Origin: Frigoribacterium endophyticum | GTDB lineage: Bacteria > Actinomycetota > Actinomycetes > Actinomycetales > Microbacteriaceae | DNA length: 64,000 nucleotides | Assembly (NCBI RefSeq): GCF_011759585.1 | Contig: NZ_JAAOYV010000002.1 | Coordinates: forward strand, 307,510-371,509 | Direction of reading: 5' to 3' | Shown: positions 914 through 12,298 of the stretch, in pieces | Layout: each line of letters begins with the position of its first letter | Numbering within the stretch: the stretch's first letter is position 1 | Program-made: the position numbers and the translations under genes | Notes under the pieces: model-generated | What the model was told of the DNA's origin: nothing | What the model saw: only the letters and a program-made list of their open reading frames with translations | The model's database searches: none

Positions 914-1660
914 GTGACCACGAACGCCTCGAGCAAGAACAGCAGCACCGACCGCGCCGCCGAGCTCGCGACCCAGCAGGTCGTCATCCTCGCCGCCGGC
1001 CTCGGCAGCCGCCTCGGCCGCTCGCTGCCCAAGTCGCTCACCGAGCTCAGCGACGGCCGCACGATCATGCAGCAGCAGTTCGAGAACATCCACGCCGCCT
1101 TCGGCCCCCGCGCCCGCGTCACCGTGGTCGTCGGGTACAAGTTCGAGCACATCGTCGAGGCCTTCCCCCACGCGTCGTTCGTCTACAACGAGCAGTACGA
1201 CCAGACCAACACGTCGAAGAGCCTCATGCGGGCGCTCCGCGCCAGCTCGGCCGGCGGCGTCCTCTGGATGAACGGCGACGTCGTCTTCGACCCCGAGGCG
1301 CTCCGCCGCGCCGCGCGCCTCGTCCGTGACGACCAGTCGTTCGTGACGGTCAACACCTCGAAGGTCTCCGACGAGGAGGTCAAGTACACGACCGACGCCG
1401 AGGGCTACATCGCCGAGCTCTCGAAGCAGGTCAAGCACGGCCTCGGCGAGGCCGTCGGCATCAACTACGTCTCCCGGGCCGACAAGCCCGCCCTGCTGCG
1501 CCAGCTCGGCAAGGTCGACGCGCAGGACTACTTCGAGCGCGGCATCGAACTGGCCATCGACCAGGACGGGCTACTCTTTGAGCCCGTGGACATCTCCGAC
1601 CTCTACGCCGTCGAGGTCGACTTCGCGGAGGACCTCGAGCGCGCGAACCTGTTCGTCTGA
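914..1660 (+). CDS. LicC-like nucleotidyltransferase (probable CTP:phospho-alcohol cytidylyltransferase)
   Basis: A 248-residue soluble protein of the NTP-transferase (GT-A-like) fold. The nucleotide-binding signature VVILAAGLGSRLG...LPKSL lies at about residues 24-42, and a WMNGDVVFD metal/substrate strand at about residues 117-125. Length and pattern resemble LicC-type choline-phosphate cytidylyltransferases, which activate a small phospho-alcohol with CTP. The GTG start is supported by AAGGAG five bases upstream. An ABC exporter follows, and a CDP-glycerol transferase-like gene lies nearby, so it probably makes a CDP-linked precursor for a surface polymer. The exact substrate (choline, glycerol, ribitol or other) cannot be read from sequence. 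Confidence 0.75.
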   Translation: MTTNASSKNSSTDRAAELATQQVVILAAGLGSRLGRSLPKSLTELSDGRTIMQQQFENIHAAFGPRARVTVVVGYKFEHIVEAFPHASFVYNEQYDQTNTSKSLMRALRASSAGGVLWMNGDVVFDPEALRRAARLVRDDQSFVTVNTSKVSDEEVKYTTDAEGYIAELSKQVKHGLGEAVGINYVSRADKPALLRQLGKVDAQDYFERGIELAIDQDGLLFEPVDISDLYAVEVDFAEDLERANLFV

Positions 1661-1753
1661 CGGTCAGCCCGTCTGACCATCAGCACGTCCCGCGACCTGG
1701 CCGTCGAGGCTCGCCCTGCCCCCCCGAGGTGTCCCTGACCGCAGAGGACACCC

Positions 1754-2551
1754 GTGAGCACAGCCCAGGCCGAGCGCCCTCGGCGATCGTCGTCGGCGCG
1801 CTACCGCCAGACCCTGTGGCTCCTGACGAGCCGTGACCTCAAGGTCCGGTACAGCACCTCGGCGTTGGGCTACGTGTGGTCGATCCTCGACCCGCTGGTC
1901 ATGGCGGGGATCTACTTCTTCGTCTTCCAGGTGGTGTTCCGCCGGTCGGTGGGCGACGACCCCTACATCGTCTTCCTCCTCAGCGGCCTCCTGCCCTGGA
2001 TGTGGTTCACCGGGGCCGTCTCCGACAGCACCCGCGCGTTCCTCCGCGAGGCGAAGCTCGTCCGGTCCACGAAGATCCCGCGCACGATCTGGGTGCTCCG
2101 CCTGGTCGCCTCGAAGGGCATCGAGTTCGCCCTCAGCCTGCCCGTCCTCGCGCTCTTCGCCGTCCTCGGCGGGGCGCAGCTGCACTGGCAGGTCGTGTTC
2201 TTCCCGGTCGCGATGGCCCTGCAGGCGGTCCTCGTCGCCGGGGTGGGCCTCCTCGTCGCCCCCCTCGTGGTGTTCTTCCGCGACCTCGAGCGAGCGACGA
2301 AGCTGGCCCTGCGCTTCCTCTTCTACGCGTCGCCGATCATCTACGGCACCCGTGACCTGCCCGAGAGCCTGCACCTCCTCGCGGCCTTCAACCCGCTGAG
2401 CGGGATCTTCGGGCTGTACCGCTCCGCGTTCTTCCCCGAGCAGCTCGACCTGACGGAGGCCCTCGTCGGCGCGGGCATGTGCTTCGTGCTCCTCGCCGTC
2501 GGCCTGGCGGTCTTCCGATTGAGCGAGCGCGCCGTCCTGAAGGAGATCTGA
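1754..2551 (+). CDS. ABC-2 type polysaccharide/teichoic-acid exporter, permease subunit (TagG-like)
   Basis: A 265-residue membrane protein with about six hydrophobic segments. The N-terminal SRDLKVRYSTSALGYVWSILDPL is the typical start of TagG/Wzm/RfbA permeases, which form the channel for undecaprenyl-linked polymers. The GTG start has AGAGGA at 1743-1748. Its TGA overlaps the ATG of the ATPase gene by one base (2551), so the two are translationally coupled and form one transporter. It follows the cytidylyltransferase by 93 bp on the same strand. The role is export of a lipid-linked glycan or teichoic-acid-like polymer; the cargo is inferred from neighbours. Confidence 0.85.
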   Translation: MSTAQAERPRRSSSARYRQTLWLLTSRDLKVRYSTSALGYVWSILDPLVMAGIYFFVFQVVFRRSVGDDPYIVFLLSGLLPWMWFTGAVSDSTRAFLREAKLVRSTKIPRTIWVLRLVASKGIEFALSLPVLALFAVLGGAQLHWQVVFFPVAMALQAVLVAGVGLLVAPLVVFFRDLERATKLALRFLFYASPIIYGTRDLPESLHLLAAFNPLSGIFGLYRSAFFPEQLDLTEALVGAGMCFVLLAVGLAVFRLSERAVLKEI

Positions 2552-3342
2552 TGAGCTCGAGCACGCGGCCGGGGCGGACGCCCGCCGAGGAGGTCGACGG
2601 CCCCGTCATCCGGGTCGACGGCGTCGGCATCCGCTTCCGCCGCAACAAGCGCGGCCGCCGGTCGTTCAAGGACCTCTTCTCCGACAGCAGCCGTCGGTCG
2701 CGCCCCGGTGAGTTCTGGGCGCTCCGTGACGTCAGCTTCACGGTGCAGCCGGGCGAGGCCATCGGCGTCGTCGGGCGCAACGGGCAGGGCAAGTCCACGC
2801 TGCTGAAGCTGGTCGCCGAGGTGATCCTGCCCGACACCGGCACCGTCTCGGTCGTCGGCGGGGTGGCGCCGCTGATCGAGATCACGGGCGGGTTCGTGGC
2901 CGATCTGTCGGTCCGCGACAACGTCTACCTGACGGCCGGCCTGCACGGCATGAGCCGGGCCGAGATCGACGAGCGCTTCGACGAGATCATCGACTTCGCC
3001 GAGATCTCCGCCTTCGTCGACACCCCGTACAAGCACCTCTCGAGCGGCATGAAGGTGCGGATCGCCTTCTCCGTCATCTCACGGCTCGACGAGCCGGTCA
3101 TCCTCGTCGACGAGGTCCTGGCGGTCGGCGACAGGGCGTTCCGCGAGAAGTGCTACGCACGCATCGAGGAGATGCTGGCCGACGGCCGGACCCTCTTCCT
3201 CGTGTCGCACAACGAGCGGGACCTCAAGCGCTTCTGCTCGCGGGGCCTGTACCTCGACGGCGGCCGGCTCGTCCTCGACGGCCCCCTGGACGAGGCGCTG
3301 GCACGGTACTCCTCCGATCACCCTCCCCGCCCGGCGGCGTAG
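2551..3342 (+). CDS. ABC transporter ATPase for surface polymer export (TagH/Wzt-like)
   Basis: A 263-residue nucleotide-binding subunit. Walker A GRNGQGKS is at about residues 75-82. Further on are the signature LSSGMKVRI, Walker B VILVDEVLAVGD and the H-loop VSHNE. The degenerate LSSGM signature and DEVLAVGD are typical of the TagH/Wzt/KpsT family. There is no long C-terminal carbohydrate-binding domain as in Wzt, so it resembles the short TagH type. The ATG at 2551 overlaps the permease stop and has AGGAG at 2541-2545; a start further upstream in the same frame would run inside the permease gene. It powers export through the upstream permease. Confidence 0.88.
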   Translation: MSSSTRPGRTPAEEVDGPVIRVDGVGIRFRRNKRGRRSFKDLFSDSSRRSRPGEFWALRDVSFTVQPGEAIGVVGRNGQGKSTLLKLVAEVILPDTGTVSVVGGVAPLIEITGGFVADLSVRDNVYLTAGLHGMSRAEIDERFDEIIDFAEISAFVDTPYKHLSSGMKVRIAFSVISRLDEPVILVDEVLAVGDRAFREKCYARIEEMLADGRTLFLVSHNERDLKRFCSRGLYLDGGRLVLDGPLDEALARYSSDHPPRPAA

Positions 3343-3345
3343 GCT
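3340..3345 (+). promoter_or_regulatory. -10 element (TAGGCT), leaderless type
   Basis: TAGGCT ends 6 nt before the ATG at 3352, so transcription would begin at or next to the start codon. Its first three bases are the stop codon of the ABC ATPase. No Shine-Dalgarno sequence fits between. Confidence 0.5.
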
Positions 3346-3351
3346 CCAGCG

Positions 3352-4119
3352 ATGCCCGACCAGACCGTGCCCGAGGGCCCGCAGCCGCTCCCGCCCGTCC
3401 CGTCCGACGTCGTCGCGGAGGCCGACGAGACGTCCCCGTTCAGCGAGTCCCCGTGGCTCCGACGCCTCGACGCGGTCCTCGCCGTCCAGCGGCCGGTCGC
3501 CGTCGCCCACGTGCGGCGGCTCCGGCGTCGCCACCCGAGGGCGACCCCCGAGAAGCTCGTGCGGATCATCGAGCGCGAGTACCTCACCGCCGTCACGGCG
3601 GGCGGGGCCGCGGTCGGCGCCAGCGCCGTCGTCCCCGGCATCGGCTGGGGCATCTCCCTCGCGCTCTCCGGCGTCGAGACCGCGGGCTTCCTCGAGGCCA
3701 GCGCCCTCTTCTCCCAGTCCGTGACGGAGGTGCACGGCATCGCCCTGACCGACCCCGACCGGGCCCGCGCCCTCGTCATGGCGATGCTGCTCGGCGCGCC
3801 GGGGGCGTCGCTCGTGCGCCAGTTCGCCGGGGAGGCCCTGGGCACCGCGCCGGCGCGCACGGCGTTCTGGGGCGAGCTCGTGACGCAGAAGCTGCCCAAG
3901 ACCGCCATCGACGGCCTCATGGGCAAGGTGCGGAAGCAGTTCGTCCGGCGCTTCGCCGCCTCCCAGGGCGCCAGCATCCTCGGCCGCGCCGCGCCGTTCG
4001 GCATCGGAGCCGTCGTGGGAGGCGCGGGGAACCACGCGCTCGGACGCAAGGTCGTGCAGAGCGCCAGGACGGCCTTCGGCCCGGCACCCGCCGCCTTCCC
4101 CCTCGAGATCCACAGCTAG
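3352..4119 (+). CDS. Uncharacterised protein with glycine-rich hydrophobic segments (EcsC-like?)
   Basis: A 255-residue protein I do not firmly recognise. The N-terminal 75 residues are acidic/proline-rich, then basic. A Gly/Ala-rich hydrophobic stretch is at about residues 82-115 (GGAAVGASAVVPGIGWG) and another near residues 205-235 (FGIGAVVGGAGNHALGRKV). The second resembles the C-terminal Gly-Ala patch of EcsC-family proteins, but the match is by eye only. No enzyme motif is visible. It appears to have its own leaderless promoter, so it need not be part of the exporter operon. Confidence 0.6.
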   Translation: MPDQTVPEGPQPLPPVPSDVVAEADETSPFSESPWLRRLDAVLAVQRPVAVAHVRRLRRRHPRATPEKLVRIIEREYLTAVTAGGAAVGASAVVPGIGWGISLALSGVETAGFLEASALFSQSVTEVHGIALTDPDRARALVMAMLLGAPGASLVRQFAGEALGTAPARTAFWGELVTQKLPKTAIDGLMGKVRKQFVRRFAASQGASILGRAAPFGIGAVVGGAGNHALGRKVVQSARTAFGPAPAAFPLEIHS

Positions 4120-4198
4120 CCCGCACGCCCGTCGACGCCGACCCTCCCCACGACGCCGTCGTCCACAGGGTCAGCGCGCGAGTGTCGGCGGGCCGACC

Positions 4199-4204
4199 TA
4201 CCGT
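4199..4204 (+). promoter_or_regulatory. -10 element (TACCGT), leaderless type
   Basis: TACCGT ends 6 nt before the ATG at 4211, and there is no Shine-Dalgarno sequence. It supports expression of the small gene that follows. Confidence 0.5.
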
Positions 4205-4210
4205 CGCGCC

Positions 4211-4489
4211 ATGGACACCACGACCGCCTACCCCGTCCCCCTCGTCGTCGACCGCTCCCGAGGGCCGCGGGTGCAACGACTCCTCAACGTGGGCGACGAG
4301 CCCCTCCTCGACCTCCGCGTGACGTTGCTCGACACCGGCCTGCTCGTGCCCGTGGCGACCTCCCGGCTCGAGCCCGGCGGCTCGATGAGCGTCAGCGTCA
4401 TCGGCCCGGAGCTCGAGCGTCGCGGCATCGCCGTCGTGCGGTGGTTCCGCCCCGGCGGAGACGAGTACCTCTGGCGCTTCAGCTTCTGA
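4211..4489 (+). CDS. Small hypothetical protein, 92 aa
   Basis: The 92-residue product alternates hydrophobic and charged residues like a small beta-sandwich (LLNVGDEPLLDLRVTLLDTG, then SMSVSVIG and VVRWFRPGG). There is no signal peptide or membrane segment and I recognise no family. The -10 hexamer placed exactly for a leaderless transcript is the main evidence that it is real. It converges with the regulator gene ending at 4502, 12 bp away. Confidence 0.55.
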   Translation: MDTTTAYPVPLVVDRSRGPRVQRLLNVGDEPLLDLRVTLLDTGLLVPVATSRLEPGGSMSVSVIGPELERRGIAVVRWFRPGGDEYLWRFSF

Positions 4490-4501
4490 CGGTCGCCGTG
4501 C

Positions 4502-4807
4502 TCAGCGGCCCGAGCGGGCTCGCCGCTCCGCGACGTACTCGGCCGCGGTGAAGGTCTCGATCACGGGCGGGAGGTGCTCCGCGCTCATCCCCGCCACGAA
4601 GGTCGCCGGGTCGACGCCCAGCACGACGGCCAGGCGCACGATCGTGTGCAGCACGGGGTTTCCGACCCCTCGCTCGATCTTGCCGTAGTTCGACACGTTC
4701 ATGCCGGCGAGGTGCGCCACCTCGTCCTGGCTGAGCCCGAGGCGCTGGCGCTCCTGGCGGACTCGATCACCGAAGAGGTGGGCGGCGGGCGACGAGGGCT
4801 CAGGCAT
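4502..4807 (-). CDS. XRE-family helix-turn-helix regulator
   Basis: A 101-residue protein with a Cro/C1-type HTH at about residues 14-70: RQERQRLGLSQDEVAHLAG, then MNVSNYGKIERGVGNP as the recognition region. The C-terminal 30 residues (FTAAEYVAERRARSGR) are charged. It binds DNA as a transcriptional regulator; the target is unknown. The ATG at 4807 is preceded by TACTCA six bases upstream, close to the leaderless pattern seen elsewhere. It lies between two strands of the wall-polymer locus, so it may regulate that locus, but this is inference from position. Confidence 0.8.
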   Translation of the reverse strand: MPEPSSPAAHLFGDRVRQERQRLGLSQDEVAHLAGMNVSNYGKIERGVGNPVLHTIVRLAVVLGVDPATFVAGMSAEHLPPVIETFTAAEYVAERRARSGR

Positions 4808-4885
4808 GCATCATGAGTACGCGTCCTGCGCACAGAACTCCAGATGCCGTGCCGCCCGGGCATCGATCACCGGTGGCTGCATGCC

Positions 4886-6175
4886 CTAGAGGCCGTCGTC
4901 ACCGGTGTCCGGGGAGTCGTTCTCCCCGAGCGCGCGCAAGGGGAGGGGGTACCGCGCGGCGTACTCGTCGCGCCGGGCCACGAGACGGGCGACCGCGTCC
5001 TCGAAGCGCTGCGTCGCCGCCCCGGGGGTGGTGTCGCCGAAATGGTGCCGCACCCAGTGCTGCAGACGCCCCTGCGCCTCCGGGTCCGCCTGGACCCTGT
5101 CCAGGACCTCCACCACCCGCGACGCGTCGTCCGCGGTCAACCACTCCGCCGCGCCCAGGTAACCCCGCTCGTCGACGTCCGCCAGGGGCGACGTGGGCCG
5201 GGTGACCACGAGGGGCCGACCGGTGGCCAGGCGGTCGTAGACCATCGCCGAGATGTCGCTGATGGCCACGTCGGCGACCGCGAGCTGCCACCCGAGCTCC
5301 CCCCCGGCGTCGTGGACGTGCTGGGCCGTCGGGTCTGCGGCGTTGGCCGCCGCCACGGCCGCGACGATCTCCTCGTGGGCTCGCCGGTACTCGCGGTCCA
5401 CGACCCCGCTCCGGGGGTGGGGGCGGTAGATGACCCGGTGGCGGCCGCTCGCCAGCAGCGCCGCCACGAGCCGGGTGCCGTGGCTGGCGATGGAGCCGTA
5501 GGCCGCGGCGGCCCGGTCGCCTTCCCAGGTCGGCGCGTAGAGCACCACGGTGCGGTCGTCGGGCGTGAAGGGCACGTCTCCGGCCGTGTGGTCGGCCTGG
5601 GGCCGCCCGACCGGGACGGCCCGCGTGTCGAGGTCGTAGTCCCAGAGCACGGCCGCGAGGCGCTCCCGCGCGGCGTCGCCGGCCACGAAGGCGTAGTCGT
5701 ACGCCTTGAACTGGTTCGTGGTCATGTACATCTTGTCGCTCTCGCCGTGGTTGACGAAGACGTGCCACATGCGCCCGTAGCGCATCATCTGGAAGTTCTT
5801 GGCGTTCTGGTTGACGTAGAGCGTGACGGCCAACGGGTGCGACTCCACGAAGGCCTCCAGGTCGGCCACCTGGCGGGCGTACACGACCGGGACGGGCGAC
5901 TCCTCCATCAGCGCCAGCATGGCCCCGGGCGACCGCGACACGATGGCCACCGGGAAGGTCTCGGCGAGGTGCGCGAGCGGCGCGTACCACTGGCGGATCT
6001 GGTACATGTTCACCGACGTGTCGGCGAAGTAGACCGCGACCCTCACGGAGCCGGGCTCCGGCGCCCGACGGAGCCGCTCACGGTCGAGACGCTCGAGACG
6101 CCGCCGCTGCTGGCGCGACCGGAGGGCCCGACGGGCGAGTCCGCGGGCGAGTGAGAGATCTCGTCTCAGGGGCAC
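4886..6175 (-). CDS. CDP-glycerol glycerophosphotransferase family enzyme (TagF/TarF-like)
   Basis: A 429-residue peripheral-membrane-type transferase with a basic, Arg-rich N-terminus (residues 1-40). Family features are VNHGESDKMY with the probable catalytic His near residue 143, YAPTWEGDRA, YRPHPRSG, and the C-terminal SDISAMVYDRLATGRPLVV typical of TagF-like polymerases and primases. Known relatives transfer polyol-phosphate from CDP-polyol to a lipid-linked acceptor or growing teichoic acid. The GTG start at 6175 has GGAGG eight bases upstream. With the LicC-like cytidylyltransferase and TagG/TagH exporter it points to a phosphodiester-linked wall polymer. Whether the unit is glycerol phosphate is not decidable here. 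Confidence 0.8.
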   Translation of the reverse strand: MPLRRDLSLARGLARRALRSRQQRRRLERLDRERLRRAPEPGSVRVAVYFADTSVNMYQIRQWYAPLAHLAETFPVAIVSRSPGAMLALMEESPVPVVYARQVADLEAFVESHPLAVTLYVNQNAKNFQMMRYGRMWHVFVNHGESDKMYMTTNQFKAYDYAFVAGDAARERLAAVLWDYDLDTRAVPVGRPQADHTAGDVPFTPDDRTVVLYAPTWEGDRAAAAYGSIASHGTRLVAALLASGRHRVIYRPHPRSGVVDREYRRAHEEIVAAVAAANAADPTAQHVHDAGGELGWQLAVADVAISDISAMVYDRLATGRPLVVTRPTSPLADVDERGYLGAAEWLTADDASRVVEVLDRVQADPEAQGRLQHWVRHHFGDTTPGAATQRFEDAVARLVARRDEYAARYPLPLRALGENDSPDTGDDGL

Positions 6176-6232
6176 GAGGTCGTCCTCCGATCGGTGGCGG
6201 TCCGGGCGGGGTGCCGACCGGGCTGATCCAGG

Positions 6233-7117
6233 CTAGATCACCGGCGGCCGGCCCGCCCTCGCCATCCGGGCCACGGCGGCCCACCCGATCGAGCGGCGGC
6301 CGCCCGGGCTCGTGCGCCAGCCCTCCGCCCAGCCGCCGAACCACTGGCCGAGGCGCACGGGCGTGCGGGCCCAGCGCAGCACCTGGACGATCGTCCACGA
6401 CGCCACGTAGACGGGCACGAGCGGCCACGGGAGGTTGCGCTTCGCCAGCCACACCCGGTTGCGCGCGTTCAGGCGGTGGTACTCCGCGTGACGGGCCGGG
6501 TCGATGGCGGGGTGGTGGGCGACCAGCTCGCCGTCGTAGCGCACGCGGAGGCCCTGGGCCCAGACCCGCCAGGCGAGCTCGATGCCCTCGTGGGCGTAGA
6601 AGTAGGGCTCGCCCCAGCCGCCGCAGGCGTCGAAGACGTCGCGGGGCAGGAGCGTCGCGCCTTCCCAGACGGAGAAGACGTCGCCGCTGTCGGTGGGTTC
6701 GCCCTTGCGGATGCGCGGGATCCACCGGCGAGGCGACGTCGCCCCCGTGGGGTCGACGACCCGGGGCTGCAGGAGCCCGACGTCGCCCTCGCGGCGCACC
6801 ACGGCGATCGCGTCGGCGAGGAACGTCGGAGAGGGGAGGGAGGCGTCGTCGTCGAGGAAGAAGATCCACTCCCCCGAGACCCTCCCGGCGCCGCGGTTGC
6901 GACCAGCGGGGATGCCCACGTTGGCGGGCAGCTCGAGCACGGCGACCCCGTCGGGCACGGGCCCCGGCCCGCCGCCGTTGCCGACGCAGACGACGTCGAG
7001 CTCGACGCCCTGCTGGCGGAGGAGCGACGAGAGCCCCGCCGTGAGGTCCGCCGGCCGTCGGCCCTGCGTCAGGCTCACGACCCCGACGCGGGGCAGGCCG
7101 GCCGCGCCGGCGCTCAG
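6233..7117 (-). CDS. GT2 family glycosyltransferase
   Basis: The GT-A/GT2 domain begins with the strand PRVGVVSLTQG. It continues through a nucleotide-sugar site with NVGIPAGRNRGA and the metal-binding FFLDDDASLP, then an acceptor region WGEPYFYAHEGIELAWRVW (ED-type motif), and a C-terminal segment that is probably membrane-associated. The start is uncertain. The first conventional start is GTG at 7078, but that removes the first beta strand. A CTG at 7117, overlapping the stop of the upstream phosphatidyltransferase gene, keeps the domain whole at 294 residues, so I used it. It is probably co-transcribed with the next two genes upstream and adds a sugar to a lipid-linked or polymer acceptor. 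Confidence 0.75.
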   Translation of the reverse strand: MSAGAAGLPRVGVVSLTQGRRPADLTAGLSSLLRQQGVELDVVCVGNGGGPGPVPDGVAVLELPANVGIPAGRNRGAGRVSGEWIFFLDDDASLPSPTFLADAIAVVRREGDVGLLQPRVVDPTGATSPRRWIPRIRKGEPTDSGDVFSVWEGATLLPRDVFDACGGWGEPYFYAHEGIELAWRVWAQGLRVRYDGELVAHHPAIDPARHAEYHRLNARNRVWLAKRNLPWPLVPVYVASWTIVQVLRWARTPVRLGQWFGGWAEGWRTSPGGRRSIGWAAVARMARAGRPPVI

Positions 7118-7923
7118 GACCTGACCCGCTTCGAGGCCATGATGGCGACGAAGTGCCCCACGAGCGCGAGCACCGAGAGCGGCAGCAGCACGGCCACGAG
7201 GACCCGGTCGGCGCCGAGCGGGTCGCCCACGACCAGCCCGACGACGGCTGCCAGGACGGCCAGCATCGTCAGCTCGACCGAGTGGTAGAGGCGGTGGAAC
7301 GGCACGAACCGGGCCGCCGAGCGGAGCCGCGCGAGGAGCCGCCCGGAGGGCACCGTGGCGCCGCCCCGCTTGTCGGCGAGGCGGTCGAGGCCCGCGGCCG
7401 CCCGGGCGACGTGGACCATGTCGTTGAGCGCCTTGTTCAGCACCACGACGAGCGCGAGCGCGCACCCCAGCGTGGTCCAGAGGTAGTCGGCGGGAGCGTC
7501 GAAGGGCCAGCCCGCGGCCCGCACCCCCAGCACGACGGGGATGAGCGCCTCGGTGGAGTAGTGGCCGACCTTGTCGAGGAAGACGCCCGCCGGCGAGCTC
7601 GTGCCGCGCCAGCGCGCGACCTCGCCGTCGCAGCAGTCGACCAGCATCTGCAGCTGGCCGAGCACCAGGGCGAGCATCGCGCCGCCGATGCCGGGCACGA
7701 GGAGGGCCGCCGCCGTCGCCCACCCGGTCAGGATCATGAGGCCGGTCACGCCGTTCGCCGTGACGCTCGTCCGCAGCAGCCACCACGTCAGGTACGGCGA
7801 CACGTCACGCAGGTACAGCGAGGCCGTCCAGTGCTCGGCGTTCGCCCGGCTGCGCACCTCGGGGGGCTGGGCGACCCGTCGGAGCTCGTCGATGGAGGTC
7901 GGCCTCGTGGGCAGCGAGGTCAT
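7114..7923 (-). CDS. CDP-alcohol phosphatidyltransferase family membrane enzyme with an altered metal site
   Basis: A 269-residue polytopic membrane protein. The family motif DxxDGxxAR...GxxxDxxxD is present as DCCDGEVAR (D96, D99) followed by GVFLDKVGH (D117). The fourth conserved Asp is replaced by His121. Known members move a phospho-alcohol from a CDP-lipid (or CDP-alcohol) to an acceptor alcohol, using two metal ions held by the four Asp. The second half has several hydrophobic segments (VVVLNKALND, LLPLSVLALVGHF). It sits between two GT2 genes in an apparent operon with the TagF-like gene, which suggests formation of a phospho-linked glycolipid or polymer precursor. The substrate is unknown. 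Confidence 0.8.
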   Translation of the reverse strand: MTSLPTRPTSIDELRRVAQPPEVRSRANAEHWTASLYLRDVSPYLTWWLLRTSVTANGVTGLMILTGWATAAALLVPGIGGAMLALVLGQLQMLVDCCDGEVARWRGTSSPAGVFLDKVGHYSTEALIPVVLGVRAAGWPFDAPADYLWTTLGCALALVVVLNKALNDMVHVARAAAGLDRLADKRGGATVPSGRLLARLRSAARFVPFHRLYHSVELTMLAVLAAVVGLVVGDPLGADRVLVAVLLPLSVLALVGHFVAIMASKRVRS

Positions 7924-7930
7924 GGCGCGG

Positions 7931-9037
7931 CTACCTCCCGGTGTGAGCGGTGATGTTCTTCGTGAGCGACAGGAAGCCGAAGACGAAGCCGGATCCCCAG
8001 CCGAAGTGGATGGAGGGCAAGACTACGAGAAACCACAGCCGCGTGCGGAGGCTCTCGCCCCGCGCGGCGAGCACGGCCGCCGCGACCACGAAGAGCAGGT
8101 ACGCCCCCGGCGCCGCGAAGCCGAGCAGCGCCCAGGCCCACGGGCTGCCCACGGCCGCGCCGACGACCCCGACGAGGCCCACGAGGAGGCCGGCTCCCGC
8201 GCCGACGACCATCGCCGGCGGCACGAGGTAGCGCAGCGTGTTCGCCTTCGGGAACCGCCGGGCGAGCTCGCCCCGCCAGAGCCCGGTCGCGACGAACTGC
8301 CGGACGAGCTTGTGGAGGCTCGGCCGGGGCCGGTAGGTCACCACGAGCTCCGGCGTGAACCAGACCGTGCCCCCGGTCGCCCGCAGCCGTCGGTTGAGCT
8401 CCCAGTCCTGGCCGCGCTTGACGCCCTCGTCGAAGAGGCCCACCTCGAGCAGGCGGGAGCGCACGAAGACGCCGAGGTAGGCGGTCTCGGCGGGCCCCTC
8501 CGCGCCTCCGACGTGGTGGGGAGTGCCCCCGAGGCCGACGCGGCTGCCGTACGCGCGCGCCACCGCCCGCTCGAAGGGGGTGCGCCCCTCGGCGAGCATG
8601 ATGCCGCCCACGTTGTCGGCCCCGCTCCGCTGCAGGGCCGCGACGGCGAGCCGCGTGTACTCGGGGGGCAGGACGGAGTGCGCGTCGACGCGGACGGTGA
8701 CGGGGTGCACCGAGGCCCGGATGGCGACGTTGAGGCCGGCCGGCGTCGAGCCGACCGGGTTGGGGATGCTCCGGATGCGCGGGTCGGCCGCCGACATCTC
8801 GGCGACGACCTCGTCCGTCCTGTCCACGCTCGGCCCGAGGGCGAGCAGCACCTCGAAGGGGCCCTGGTAGTCCTGCGCGACGAGGCTCTCGACGGCGGCC
8901 CGGATCTCCGCCTCCTCGTTGAGGACGGGCATGACGTACGAGACACCGGGGAGGGGCGTGTCGGGCAGTGCCATGGTGTCGGGCCTCGGGCTCACGGCGC
9001 TGGGCGCACGGTCGGGGACGGGGGATGCCGCCGGCAT
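7931..9037 (-). CDS. GT2 glycosyltransferase with C-terminal membrane segments (ExoA-like)
   Basis: A 368-residue protein. The GT2 domain spans about residues 28-260, with GVSYVMPVLNEEAEIRAAVESL, the metal site RVDAHSVLP (DxH in place of DxD, as in ExoA-type enzymes) and the acceptor motif GQDWELNRRLR. Three hydrophobic segments follow at about residues 275-360. ExoA relatives add sugars to undecaprenyl-pyrophosphate-linked oligosaccharides at the inner face of the membrane. An in-frame ATG at 8974 (MALPDTPLPG) is an alternative start that drops a proline-rich leader. It is first in the minus-strand run 9037 to 4886. Confidence 0.82.
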   Translation of the reverse strand: MPAASPVPDRAPSAVSPRPDTMALPDTPLPGVSYVMPVLNEEAEIRAAVESLVAQDYQGPFEVLLALGPSVDRTDEVVAEMSAADPRIRSIPNPVGSTPAGLNVAIRASVHPVTVRVDAHSVLPPEYTRLAVAALQRSGADNVGGIMLAEGRTPFERAVARAYGSRVGLGGTPHHVGGAEGPAETAYLGVFVRSRLLEVGLFDEGVKRGQDWELNRRLRATGGTVWFTPELVVTYRPRPSLHKLVRQFVATGLWRGELARRFPKANTLRYLVPPAMVVGAGAGLLVGLVGVVGAAVGSPWAWALLGFAAPGAYLLFVVAAAVLAARGESLRTRLWFLVVLPSIHFGWGSGFVFGFLSLTKNITAHTGR

Positions 9038-9129: not shown

Positions 9130-10920
<1,791 letters not shown>

Positions 10921-11098
10921 GGTCGCGGTGCTCCTTCCAAGCTCCGCCAGCCTGGCCCCTCTGCCTGTGGGGAACATATGGCGAGCCTGAGCGGGTCCTG
11001 CGGCCACGGCATGCGCCCGCCGAGCGTCAGGTCCGTGCCCGTCACGGGACGACGCCGGGCTGGCCGGTGGGCCGGGCGGCGGCTACGGTGTCGGGACC

Positions 11099-12298
11099 AT
11101 GACTGCACCAGCCCCCTGGCAGCGCGTCGCCCGAGGCGCCCGGCTGCTCGACGACGACGGCCGACTCGCCACCACGATCTTCGCCGAGATGTCCTTCCTG
11201 GCCGCCGCGACGGGGGCGATCAACCTCGGGCAGGGATTCCCCGACGAGGACGGTCCGCGCGAGGTGCTCGACGCCGCGCACGCGGCCCTCGACGCCGGCC
11301 TGAACCAGTACCCGCCCGGCCGCGGCGTGCCCGTGCTGCTCGAGGCGGTCGCGGCGCACCAGGCGCGGTTCTACGGCCTGCAGCTCGACCCCTCGCGCGA
11401 GGTCCTCGTGACGGCCGGCGCCACGGAAGCACTGGCCGCGACCCTGCTCGCCCTCGTCGACGAGGGCGACGAGGTGCTCACCCTCGAGCCCTTCTACGAC
11501 GCCTACGGCGCCGTCATCGGCCTCACGAAGGCGACCCACCGGACGGTCCCGCTCCGGGGCGCGGACTTCCGCGTCGACCACGACGAGCTCCGGGCCGCCT
11601 TCTCCGACGCCACAGCGGTCGTCCTCGTGAACGACCCGCACAACCCCACGGGCAGCGTGCTCGACGACGAGACCCGTCAGCTGCTCGTCGACCTGGCGAT
11701 CCGCCACGACGCCGTGGTCGTCACCGACGAGGTCTACGAGCACATGCTCTTCGACGGCCGTCGTCACGTGCCGATCGCGACGCTGCCGGGCGCCGCCGAC
11801 CGCACGGTCACCATCTCCAGCGCGGGCAAGACGTTCAGCGTCACGGGCTGGAAGATCGGCTGGGCGACCGGGCCCGCCGAGCTGCTGACGCGCATCCTCA
11901 CCGTCAAGCAGTACCTCACCTACGTCAACGGGTCGGTCTTCCAGCCGGCCGTCGCGGTCGGCCTCGGCCTGCCCGACTCCTACTTCGCGGGCCTCGCCGA
12001 CAGCCTGCAGCGACGCCGCGACCTCCTCACGGAGGGGCTGACGGCCGCCGGCTTCGGGGTGTCGCCCTCGAGCGGCTCGTACTTCGTGGTGGCCGACTCC
12101 CGCCCGCTCGGCTTCGACGACGCGGCGCAGCTCGCCCGTCGGCTGCCCGAGCTCGCCGGGGTCGTCGCCGTGCCCGTGAGCGCCTTCTGCGGGCCGGAGC
12201 TCGCCCGCGAGCACTCGTCGCTGCTGCGGTTCGCCTTCTGCAAGACGACCGCGGTGCTGGAGCGTGCCGGCGACCAGCTCGCCCGCCTGCGGACCTAG
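11099..12298 (+). CDS. Class I/II PLP-dependent aminotransferase
   Basis: A 399-residue fold-type I aminotransferase. INLGQGFPDEDGP at about residues 40-52 and NDPHNPTGSVL at about 180 contact substrate and PLP. The Schiff-base Lys is in SSAGKTFSVTGWKIGW near residue 243, and RFAF near the C-terminus supplies the carboxylate-binding Arg. The pattern is that of the MalY/YbdL/kynurenine-glutamine transaminase group rather than classical AspC. Such enzymes transaminate methionine, glutamine, kynurenine or N-succinyl-LL-diaminopimelate. A separate dapC lies at 51185, so a dap role is not required here. It converges on the glycerate kinase gene and shares a CTAG with its stop. Confidence 0.85.
   Translation: MTAPAPWQRVARGARLLDDDGRLATTIFAEMSFLAAATGAINLGQGFPDEDGPREVLDAAHAALDAGLNQYPPGRGVPVLLEAVAAHQARFYGLQLDPSREVLVTAGATEALAATLLALVDEGDEVLTLEPFYDAYGAVIGLTKATHRTVPLRGADFRVDHDELRAAFSDATAVVLVNDPHNPTGSVLDDETRQLLVDLAIRHDAVVVTDEVYEHMLFDGRRHVPIATLPGAADRTVTISSAGKTFSVTGWKIGWATGPAELLTRILTVKQYLTYVNGSVFQPAVAVGLGLPDSYFAGLADSLQRRRDLLTEGLTAAGFGVSPSSGSYFVVADSRPLGFDDAAQLARRLPELAGVVAVPVSAFCGPELAREHSSLLRFAFCKTTAVLERAGDQLARLRT

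Follow-up and report, generated by a model that had tools for sequence, protein, structure and literature searches.

The locus analysed here lies at positions 914 to 9037 of a 64,000-nucleotide stretch of Frigoribacterium endophyticum DNA (the window; contig NZ_JAAOYV010000002.1, positions 307,510 to 371,509) and carries genes of wall-teichoic-acid type, in which a glycosyltransferase and a CDP-alcohol phosphotransferase (CDP-AP) homologue stand at the place that TagB-like and TagF-like genes take in related loci. On the plus strand, a LicC-like cytidylyltransferase (914..1660; NTP_transf_3 PF12804, 66.8 bits; PntC/IPCT-type fold) is followed by a TagG-type ABC export permease that adjoins LicC in relatives (1754..2551; ABC2_membrane PF01061, 50.4 bits), a TagH-type ABC export ATPase (2551..3342; ABC_tran PF00005, 67.1 bits) and a conserved protein without Pfam or NCBIfam match (3352..4119), referred to below as the unnamed gene. 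The top NCBIfam matches of the TagH-type ATPase were two teichoic-acid exporter ATPase models, both below their cut-offs. Converging on this set from the minus strand are a weak TagF-like protein (4886..6175; Glyphos_transf PF04464, 32.2 bits, a weak and partial match), a GT2 glycosyltransferase designated GT2b (6233..~7117; PF00535, 36.0 bits), the CDP-AP homologue (7114..7923; PF01066, 31.9 bits against a cut-off of 22 bits) and an ExoA-like GT2 glycosyltransferase (7931..9037; PF00535/PF13641, 61.6 bits); all Pfam scores quoted for locus proteins are above the Pfam cut-off. The GT2b start codon is uncertain, as the gene begins near 7117 by eye in the relative L161 and an in-frame GTG is present at 7078. 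A first-pass annotation of the window had called the genes at 914–9037, and all were recovered at their coordinates with the expected domains.

CDP-AP homologues were present in 49 of 120 sampled Microbacteriaceae genomes, and in a phylum-wide sample 18 of 296 genomes had a match at E 1e-8, three of which were weak matches that retain the signature aspartate D4 discussed below. Among 120 loci collected around CDP-AP homologues (L051–L170, some being the same genome reached by two search routes), a GT2b match accompanied the homologue in 118. Loci were classed as CDP-type where CDP-AP identity was at least 60% (99 of 120) and gene matches were counted from 40% identity; the 21 loci left out include Streptomyces-like and Brevibacterium loci and most loci from metagenome-assembled genomes (MAGs). 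All 69 CDP-type loci spanning LicC to HtrA showed one order throughout: TagH, the unnamed gene and/or the weak TagF, GT2b, CDP-AP, the ExoA GT2 and a flanking gene that we take to encode an HtrA-type protease (9130..11007 in the window, minus strand), which lies outside the system. The full set was found in 47 of these loci, 15 lacked the unnamed gene, six lacked the weak TagF and one had the full set with HtrA reversed. Across the 99 CDP-type loci, matches were found to GT2b in all 99, to the ExoA GT2 in 98, to the HtrA flank in 93, to an outer flanking gene that is presumably an aminotransferase (11099..12298, plus strand) in 81 and to the unnamed gene in 71. The first-pass annotation had named a failure of its genes to co-occur in related genomes as a result that would overturn it; they do co-occur. 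A chance neighbourhood is ruled out by this conservation of gene order in relatives.

A second group of Microbacteriaceae loci, here called TagF-type, was built on the same frame. This set comprised 23 of 24 regions (L196, from genome G092, was omitted for its different layout, and eight of 32 TagF-type genomes fall outside the set), each with LicC, TagG, TagH, the ExoA GT2 and the HtrA flank, and with the unnamed gene and the weak TagF-like gene in 20 each and the aminotransferase flank in 16. TagF-type loci such as L195 share with the window its flanks, LicC, TagGH, the ExoA GT2 and, in 20 of 23, the weak TagF-like gene, and differ from it in that a TagB-like gene and a TagF-like gene stand at the position of GT2b and CDP-AP. 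In Microbacteriaceae either pair excluded the other at the locus, as TagB/TagF was found in 0 of 99 CDP-type loci and CDP-AP/GT2b in 0 of 23 TagF-type loci. In L197 and L198 the TagB-like and TagF-like genes are fused as one open reading frame (ORF) of 954 or 966 amino acids, and in L197, L198 and L223 the TagB/TagF and ExoA genes stand in a different order and direction. Genome-wide counts gave the same result: a strong PF04464 match (about 95 bits or more; one 99-bit row in G009 was omitted, with counts unchanged) lay within 30 kb of LicC in none of the 49 CDP-AP genomes versus 32 of 36 LicC genomes without CDP-AP (Fisher 2e-19, uncorrected for relatedness). LicC and CDP-AP were themselves within 30 kb of each other in 43 of the 49 genomes.

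On a LicC+TagG+TagH tree of 89 loci (94 before five identical rows were removed), the cassette label needed at least six changes, in comparison to a shuffled mean of 20.4. Because the tree was built quickly and leaves 26 of its 86 inner branches open, weight was placed on the three changes that are forced by starred branches. A single inherited swap does not fit these label changes; because the label changes at least six times, cassette exchange seems to have occurred repeatedly. The first-pass annotation had remarked that the standard Bacillus set does not combine TagF-like chemistry with an enzyme of the phosphatidyltransferase type. That remark was right, and the departure is stronger than it could have known because the CDP-AP/GT2b pair occupies the place of TagB/TagF.

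Homologues of the LicC-like protein, the proposed activating enzyme of the locus, were found in 85 of the 120 Microbacteriaceae genomes and TagD above its cut-off in seven, with no overlap (P 1.1e-4 over all 120 genomes and 1.1e-8 within PF04464 genomes); the TagD threshold was the NCBIfam cut-off in this family sample and E 1e-35 in the order sample. PF04464 occurred in 95 of the family genomes, and LicC or TagD was present in 92 of these 95 and in none of the other 25. In the order sample of 198 genomes, LicC was found in 47 and TagD in 34, again without overlap, and all 47 LicC genomes had PF04464. The same held for the 184 genomes of this sample outside Microbacteriaceae (LicC in 34, TagD in 34, overlap 0, PF04464 in 34 of 34 LicC genomes), where at least 20 of 38 LicC copies, in at least 19 genomes, lay no more than 250 nucleotides from a PF04464 gene. 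In the MAG loci L161 (2622–4567), L165 and L170, LicC-like and TagF-like genes abut or nearly so on one strand, as expected for a coupled operon.

The structural model of the LicC-like protein (predicted local distance difference test score, pLDDT, 83.8; residues 1–19 and 29–37 poor) had PntC as its nearest fold, then IPCT, with KdsB, GlmU and LicC close, and gave a Foldseek probability of 1.00 against 6pd2, 2xme and 1jyk. A conserved LAAGxGxRLG stretch marks the nucleotide-binding N-terminus of the family, and the LicC profile showed no relationship to the CDP-AP profile. By its modelled fold, the enzyme belongs to a class that is unrelated to TagD and holds several CDP-alcohol synthases. It shares this class with the COG1213-type cytidylyltransferases LicC and CpgD of Caulobacter, which make CDP-alcohols, and CpgD, which makes CDP-glycerate, is described as not homologous to TagD and as having an IPCT as its best structural match (PMC12275187). 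The window enzyme would differ from both, as its co-occurrence points to glycerol phosphate. The earlier label "LicC-like" holds for the fold class, but choline is an unlikely substrate, since the gene occurs alongside TagF-family genes and shows no overlap with TagD; choline decoration, the role of LicC proper, was set aside on the same ground. The distribution can be interpreted as the LicC-like protein being, most likely, a substitute for TagD that feeds a CDP-polyol to TagF-family enzymes, and glycerol is the likeliest polyol to judge from co-occurrence.

The CDP-AP homologue was modelled with a pLDDT of 86.6, and the model matched AF2299 (Z 17.7, root-mean-square deviation 3.6, 215 aligned), IPCT-DIPPS (Z 16.3) and PIPS (Z 16.0). 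Its signature (7561..7638, minus strand) contains D96 (D1), D99 (D2) and D117 (D3), and in the alignment with AF2299 the residues D1, D2, G, A, R, G and D3 all match, with codon 7561–7563 encoding His121 at the position of D4. The protein therefore shares with AF2299, IPCT-DIPPS and PIPS the fold and the D1–D3, G, A and R of the signature, and differs from them at D4, where they have Asp. Seven of the eight signature residues (D96, D99, G100, A103, R104, G113 and D117) were invariant both among 47 CDP-AP sequences (alignment A2), in which H121 was invariant as well, and in a wider, diverse alignment of 13 (A1), where the D4 position was H in eight and A in five. A motif scan of the loci returned 73 distinct motifs with H at this position in 51, A in nine and D in 13. 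All nine Ala motifs came from large genomes of one genus that we take for Streptomyces, and all 13 Asp motifs belonged to other CDP-APs, namely the two further PF01066 proteins of the host genome (L231 and L232), second CDP-APs from Streptomyces-like, Nanopelagicales and other clusters that also hold a D4-less one, and the three weak matches. The same queries returned no second, D4-intact CDP-AP in the Microbacteriaceae loci. In L079 (6317–8119), L161, L163 and L170, a D4-intact second CDP-AP shares the cluster with the D4-less one. An acidic residue one turn after the D4 position, E125, is kept; it is no clear replacement for D4, because nine of the 13 D4-bearing motifs also have an acidic residue there.

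These substitutions concern a residue to which a central role has been assigned. The eight signature residues have been called absolutely conserved, with D4 as the likely base, and changing D4 to N in MtPIPS nearly abolished activity with binding retained (PMC4634129); in solved CDP-APs the same residue additionally coordinates the second metal (PMC6506517). The first-pass description as a CDP-alcohol phosphatidyltransferase needs amending in that the protein is no ordinary member of its family, D4 being lost. A decayed CDP-AP is disfavoured by the invariant D1–D3, and the same invariance argues for an active enzyme with altered chemistry rather than a dead one.

The weak TagF-like protein is the sole PF04464 match in the host genome, the match covering residues 154–328. 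Its family keeps the HGES(D/E)K and (R/K)xHP motifs, and two motif histidines, H143 and H253, were invariant in 21 sequences; we take these to correspond to the catalytic ones in TagF. The only PDB match of this family at E 0.01 was the TagF-like capsule polymerase Cps3D (8qoy; E 4.3e-7), which is a single 1149-residue protein in contrast to the separate TagF-like, GT2 and CDP-AP genes of the window. Poly(glycosylglycerol phosphate) is the product of TagF-like capsule polymerases (PMC8262930). GT2b had no relative in the PDB by sequence at E 0.01.

Taken together, we read the locus, with a probability of about 0.55, as a biosynthesis and export locus of wall-teichoic-acid type with a swapped backbone-assembly cassette. 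The locus has a TagGH-type exporter, a TagF-family protein and a putative CDP-alcohol synthase, and the 3.32 Mb host genome has, at the family level, candidates for the TagO-family initiator (two TagO/MraY-family genes, PF00953 above cut-off, one of which may be MraY) and for the LCP ligase (five LCP genes, PF03816 above cut-off). A TagB primase and a TagF polymerase were not found, the genome having one weak PF04464 match in all. The locus resembles the tag locus of Bacillus subtilis 168 (poly-glycerol phosphate wall teichoic acid) in that a TagGH-type exporter and a protein of the TagF family accompany a presumed CDP-alcohol synthase, LCP and TagO-family genes lying elsewhere in the host genome, and differs from it in lacking TagD above cut-off and canonical TagB/TagF, with a D4-less CDP-AP and two GT2s instead.

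In the pathway that we propose, the LicC-like enzyme would first take over the task of the unrelated TagD and activate a polyol phosphate with CDP, CDP-glycerol being the likeliest product, a step well supported by the distribution of the two genes. A lipid-linked chain with phosphodiester bonds, in which sugar and glycerol phosphate probably alternate, would then be assembled by the weak TagF-like protein together with both GT2s and the membrane CDP-AP, so that the CDP-AP/GT2b pair would do the chain assembly done by TagB/TagF in relatives. By family, TagGH would export the chain and an LCP enzyme would attach it to the wall. The weakest point of this pathway is what the CDP-AP would use as acceptor. 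A tentative proposal, which we consider improbable at present, is that the D4-less CDP-AP acts as primer or polymerase of wall teichoic acid in place of TagB/TagF, perhaps with an ionised phosphate as acceptor (polyprenyl phosphate or a phosphorylated glycan end). Such an acceptor has no hydroxyl to deprotonate and hence fits the loss of the general base D4. A His at this position may still activate a hydroxyl; an Ala can hardly do so, which is why the phosphate acceptor is put forward.

Several observations weigh against the interpretation of the locus as a teichoic-acid-type system with an exchanged cassette. It is important to note that kinship among the sampled genomes makes the Fisher values overstate independence. 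Neither LicC nor TagD was found in three of 95 PF04464 genomes of the family (G016, G064 and G097) or in 34 of 113 such genomes in the order sample, where two of 34 TagD genomes also lacked PF04464, and G052 is a partial exception to the exclusivity in having LicC plus a TagD-like match of 107.6 bits, below cut-off. In two of the 49 CDP-AP genomes LicC and CDP-AP lay far from each other (65 and 609 kb), in four they were on separate contigs, and 19 of the 49 had a strong PF04464 match elsewhere in the genome. Outside the family the exclusion of the two pairs was not strict, as Brevibacterium loci L167 and L168 have CDP-AP together with a TagF-polymerase-like match, and L162, L168 and the Nocardioidaceae MAG locus L158 have two TagF-like matches each. 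The near loss of MtPIPS activity on changing D4 to N means that the window CDP-AP might not be a phosphotransferase at all. Lastly, the substrates, the acceptor and the polymer given here for the locus are predictions.

Alternatively, the CDP-AP and GT2s may add phospho-polyol or sugar side groups to a main chain that the weak TagF-like protein and TagGH make and export. Both cassette types keep the ExoA GT2 as well as the weak TagF-like gene, and this shared set could make a common core, but CDP-AP/GT2b occupies the very place of TagB/TagF, each pair excludes the other at the locus within the family, and 30 of the 49 CDP-AP genomes have no PF04464 match of about 95 bits or more anywhere, which would leave only weak PF04464 proteins as candidate polymerases; a decorating role is accordingly regarded as unlikely. 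It is likewise doubtful that the LicC-like enzyme supplies another CDP-alcohol carried by the polymer, such as CDP-ribitol, CDP-glycerate, CDP-choline or a CDP-phosphonate. The varied substrates of the nearest solved folds (PntC and IPCT, with KdsB, GlmU and LicC near) and the CDP-glycerate product of CpgD speak for this possibility. Opposed to it are the absence of LicC/TagD overlap in TagF-family genomes, the finding that none of the ten cluster ORFs scanned matched a dehydrogenase family making another polyol phosphate, and three Brevibacterium records in which TagD itself is encoded upstream of a D4-less CDP-AP and in the same direction, immediately before it in L162 and L168 and at a distance of about 2.5 kb in L167.

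The D4-less CDP-AP could also be a non-catalytic scaffold that binds CDP-polyol or lipid, leaving GT2b and the TagF-like protein to do all of the chemistry. The replacement by His or Ala of a residue that serves as base and metal ligand in solved CDP-APs (PMC4634129, PMC6506517) favours this, but a mere scaffold need not keep D1–D3, G, A and R, which are invariant in both alignments, and the odds of such a role appear low.

The arrangement closest to the window outside the family is a Streptomyces cluster (the genus of the loci is inferred), which has the D4-less CDP-AP and GT2b adjacent, with TagGH, and differs in having an extra canonical CDP-AP, an AraM-type dehydrogenase and Ala at D4, with no TagF-like or ExoA match within the 20 kb examined. 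In two of these loci (L079 8709–9917; L083 10140–11351) the AraM-type gene, which we take to be glycerol-1-phosphate dehydrogenase-like, lies between the nucleotidyltransferase and the D4-less CDP-AP, and this hints at sn-glycerol 1-phosphate as a substrate there. The Streptomyces side of this synteny is already in print, where a syntenic region with a CDP-alcohol phosphatidyltransferase, a GT2, a sugar-phosphate nucleotidyltransferase, tagG, tagH, araM and crtB is connected with the biosynthesis of teichoic acid and with secondary metabolism (PMC13118837). Another open paper that mentions both a CDP-alcohol phosphatidyltransferase and teichoic acid showed no pathway of this kind, and for the presumed S. 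coelicolor locus tags only a network-inference paper was listed. Among the open PMC papers covered by our searches we found no report of the Microbacteriaceae swap, of LicC/TagD exclusivity, of D4 loss or of a D4-less CDP-AP, and none of a Microbacteriaceae wall-polymer structure.

The usual markers of teichoic-acid pathways are TagD, TagB and TagF. If the interpretation offered here is true, many Microbacteriaceae would make such polymers through another activating enzyme (LicC, 85 of the 120 genomes sampled), those with CDP-AP (49 of the 120) also through another chain-assembly pair, and these pathways would escape recognition by those three genes. A CDP-AP that functions without D4 would put to the test the mechanism accepted for this family, which is central to phospholipid synthesis, and one that uses a phosphate acceptor would bring the family a new reaction and give teichoic acid a new route by which the chain is started or extended.

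The nearest named relatives of the window CDP-AP were in three Frigoribacterium strains (84–87%), and the same-genus genome G110 (locus L051) clustered with the Frigoribacterium records on the locus tree, in agreement with a placement in Microbacteriaceae. Besides the unnamed gene, two ORFs absent from the first-pass account were found between the convergent halves of the locus: a small ORF of 92 amino acids (4211..4489, plus strand), which by eye resembles an ORF of the TagF-type locus L195, and an XRE-type regulator (4502..4807, minus strand; PF13560/PF01381) that could control the locus. At 1–618 of the window (L201 7676–9127), on the minus strand and running off the left end, lies an ABC ATPase-like gene whose product has a long N-terminal extension rich in Ala, and many related loci likewise have TagH-like matches of 22–30% upstream of LicC. 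On the opposite side, the HtrA-like protease gene encodes a long, repeated N-terminus rich in Tyr, Gln and Pro.

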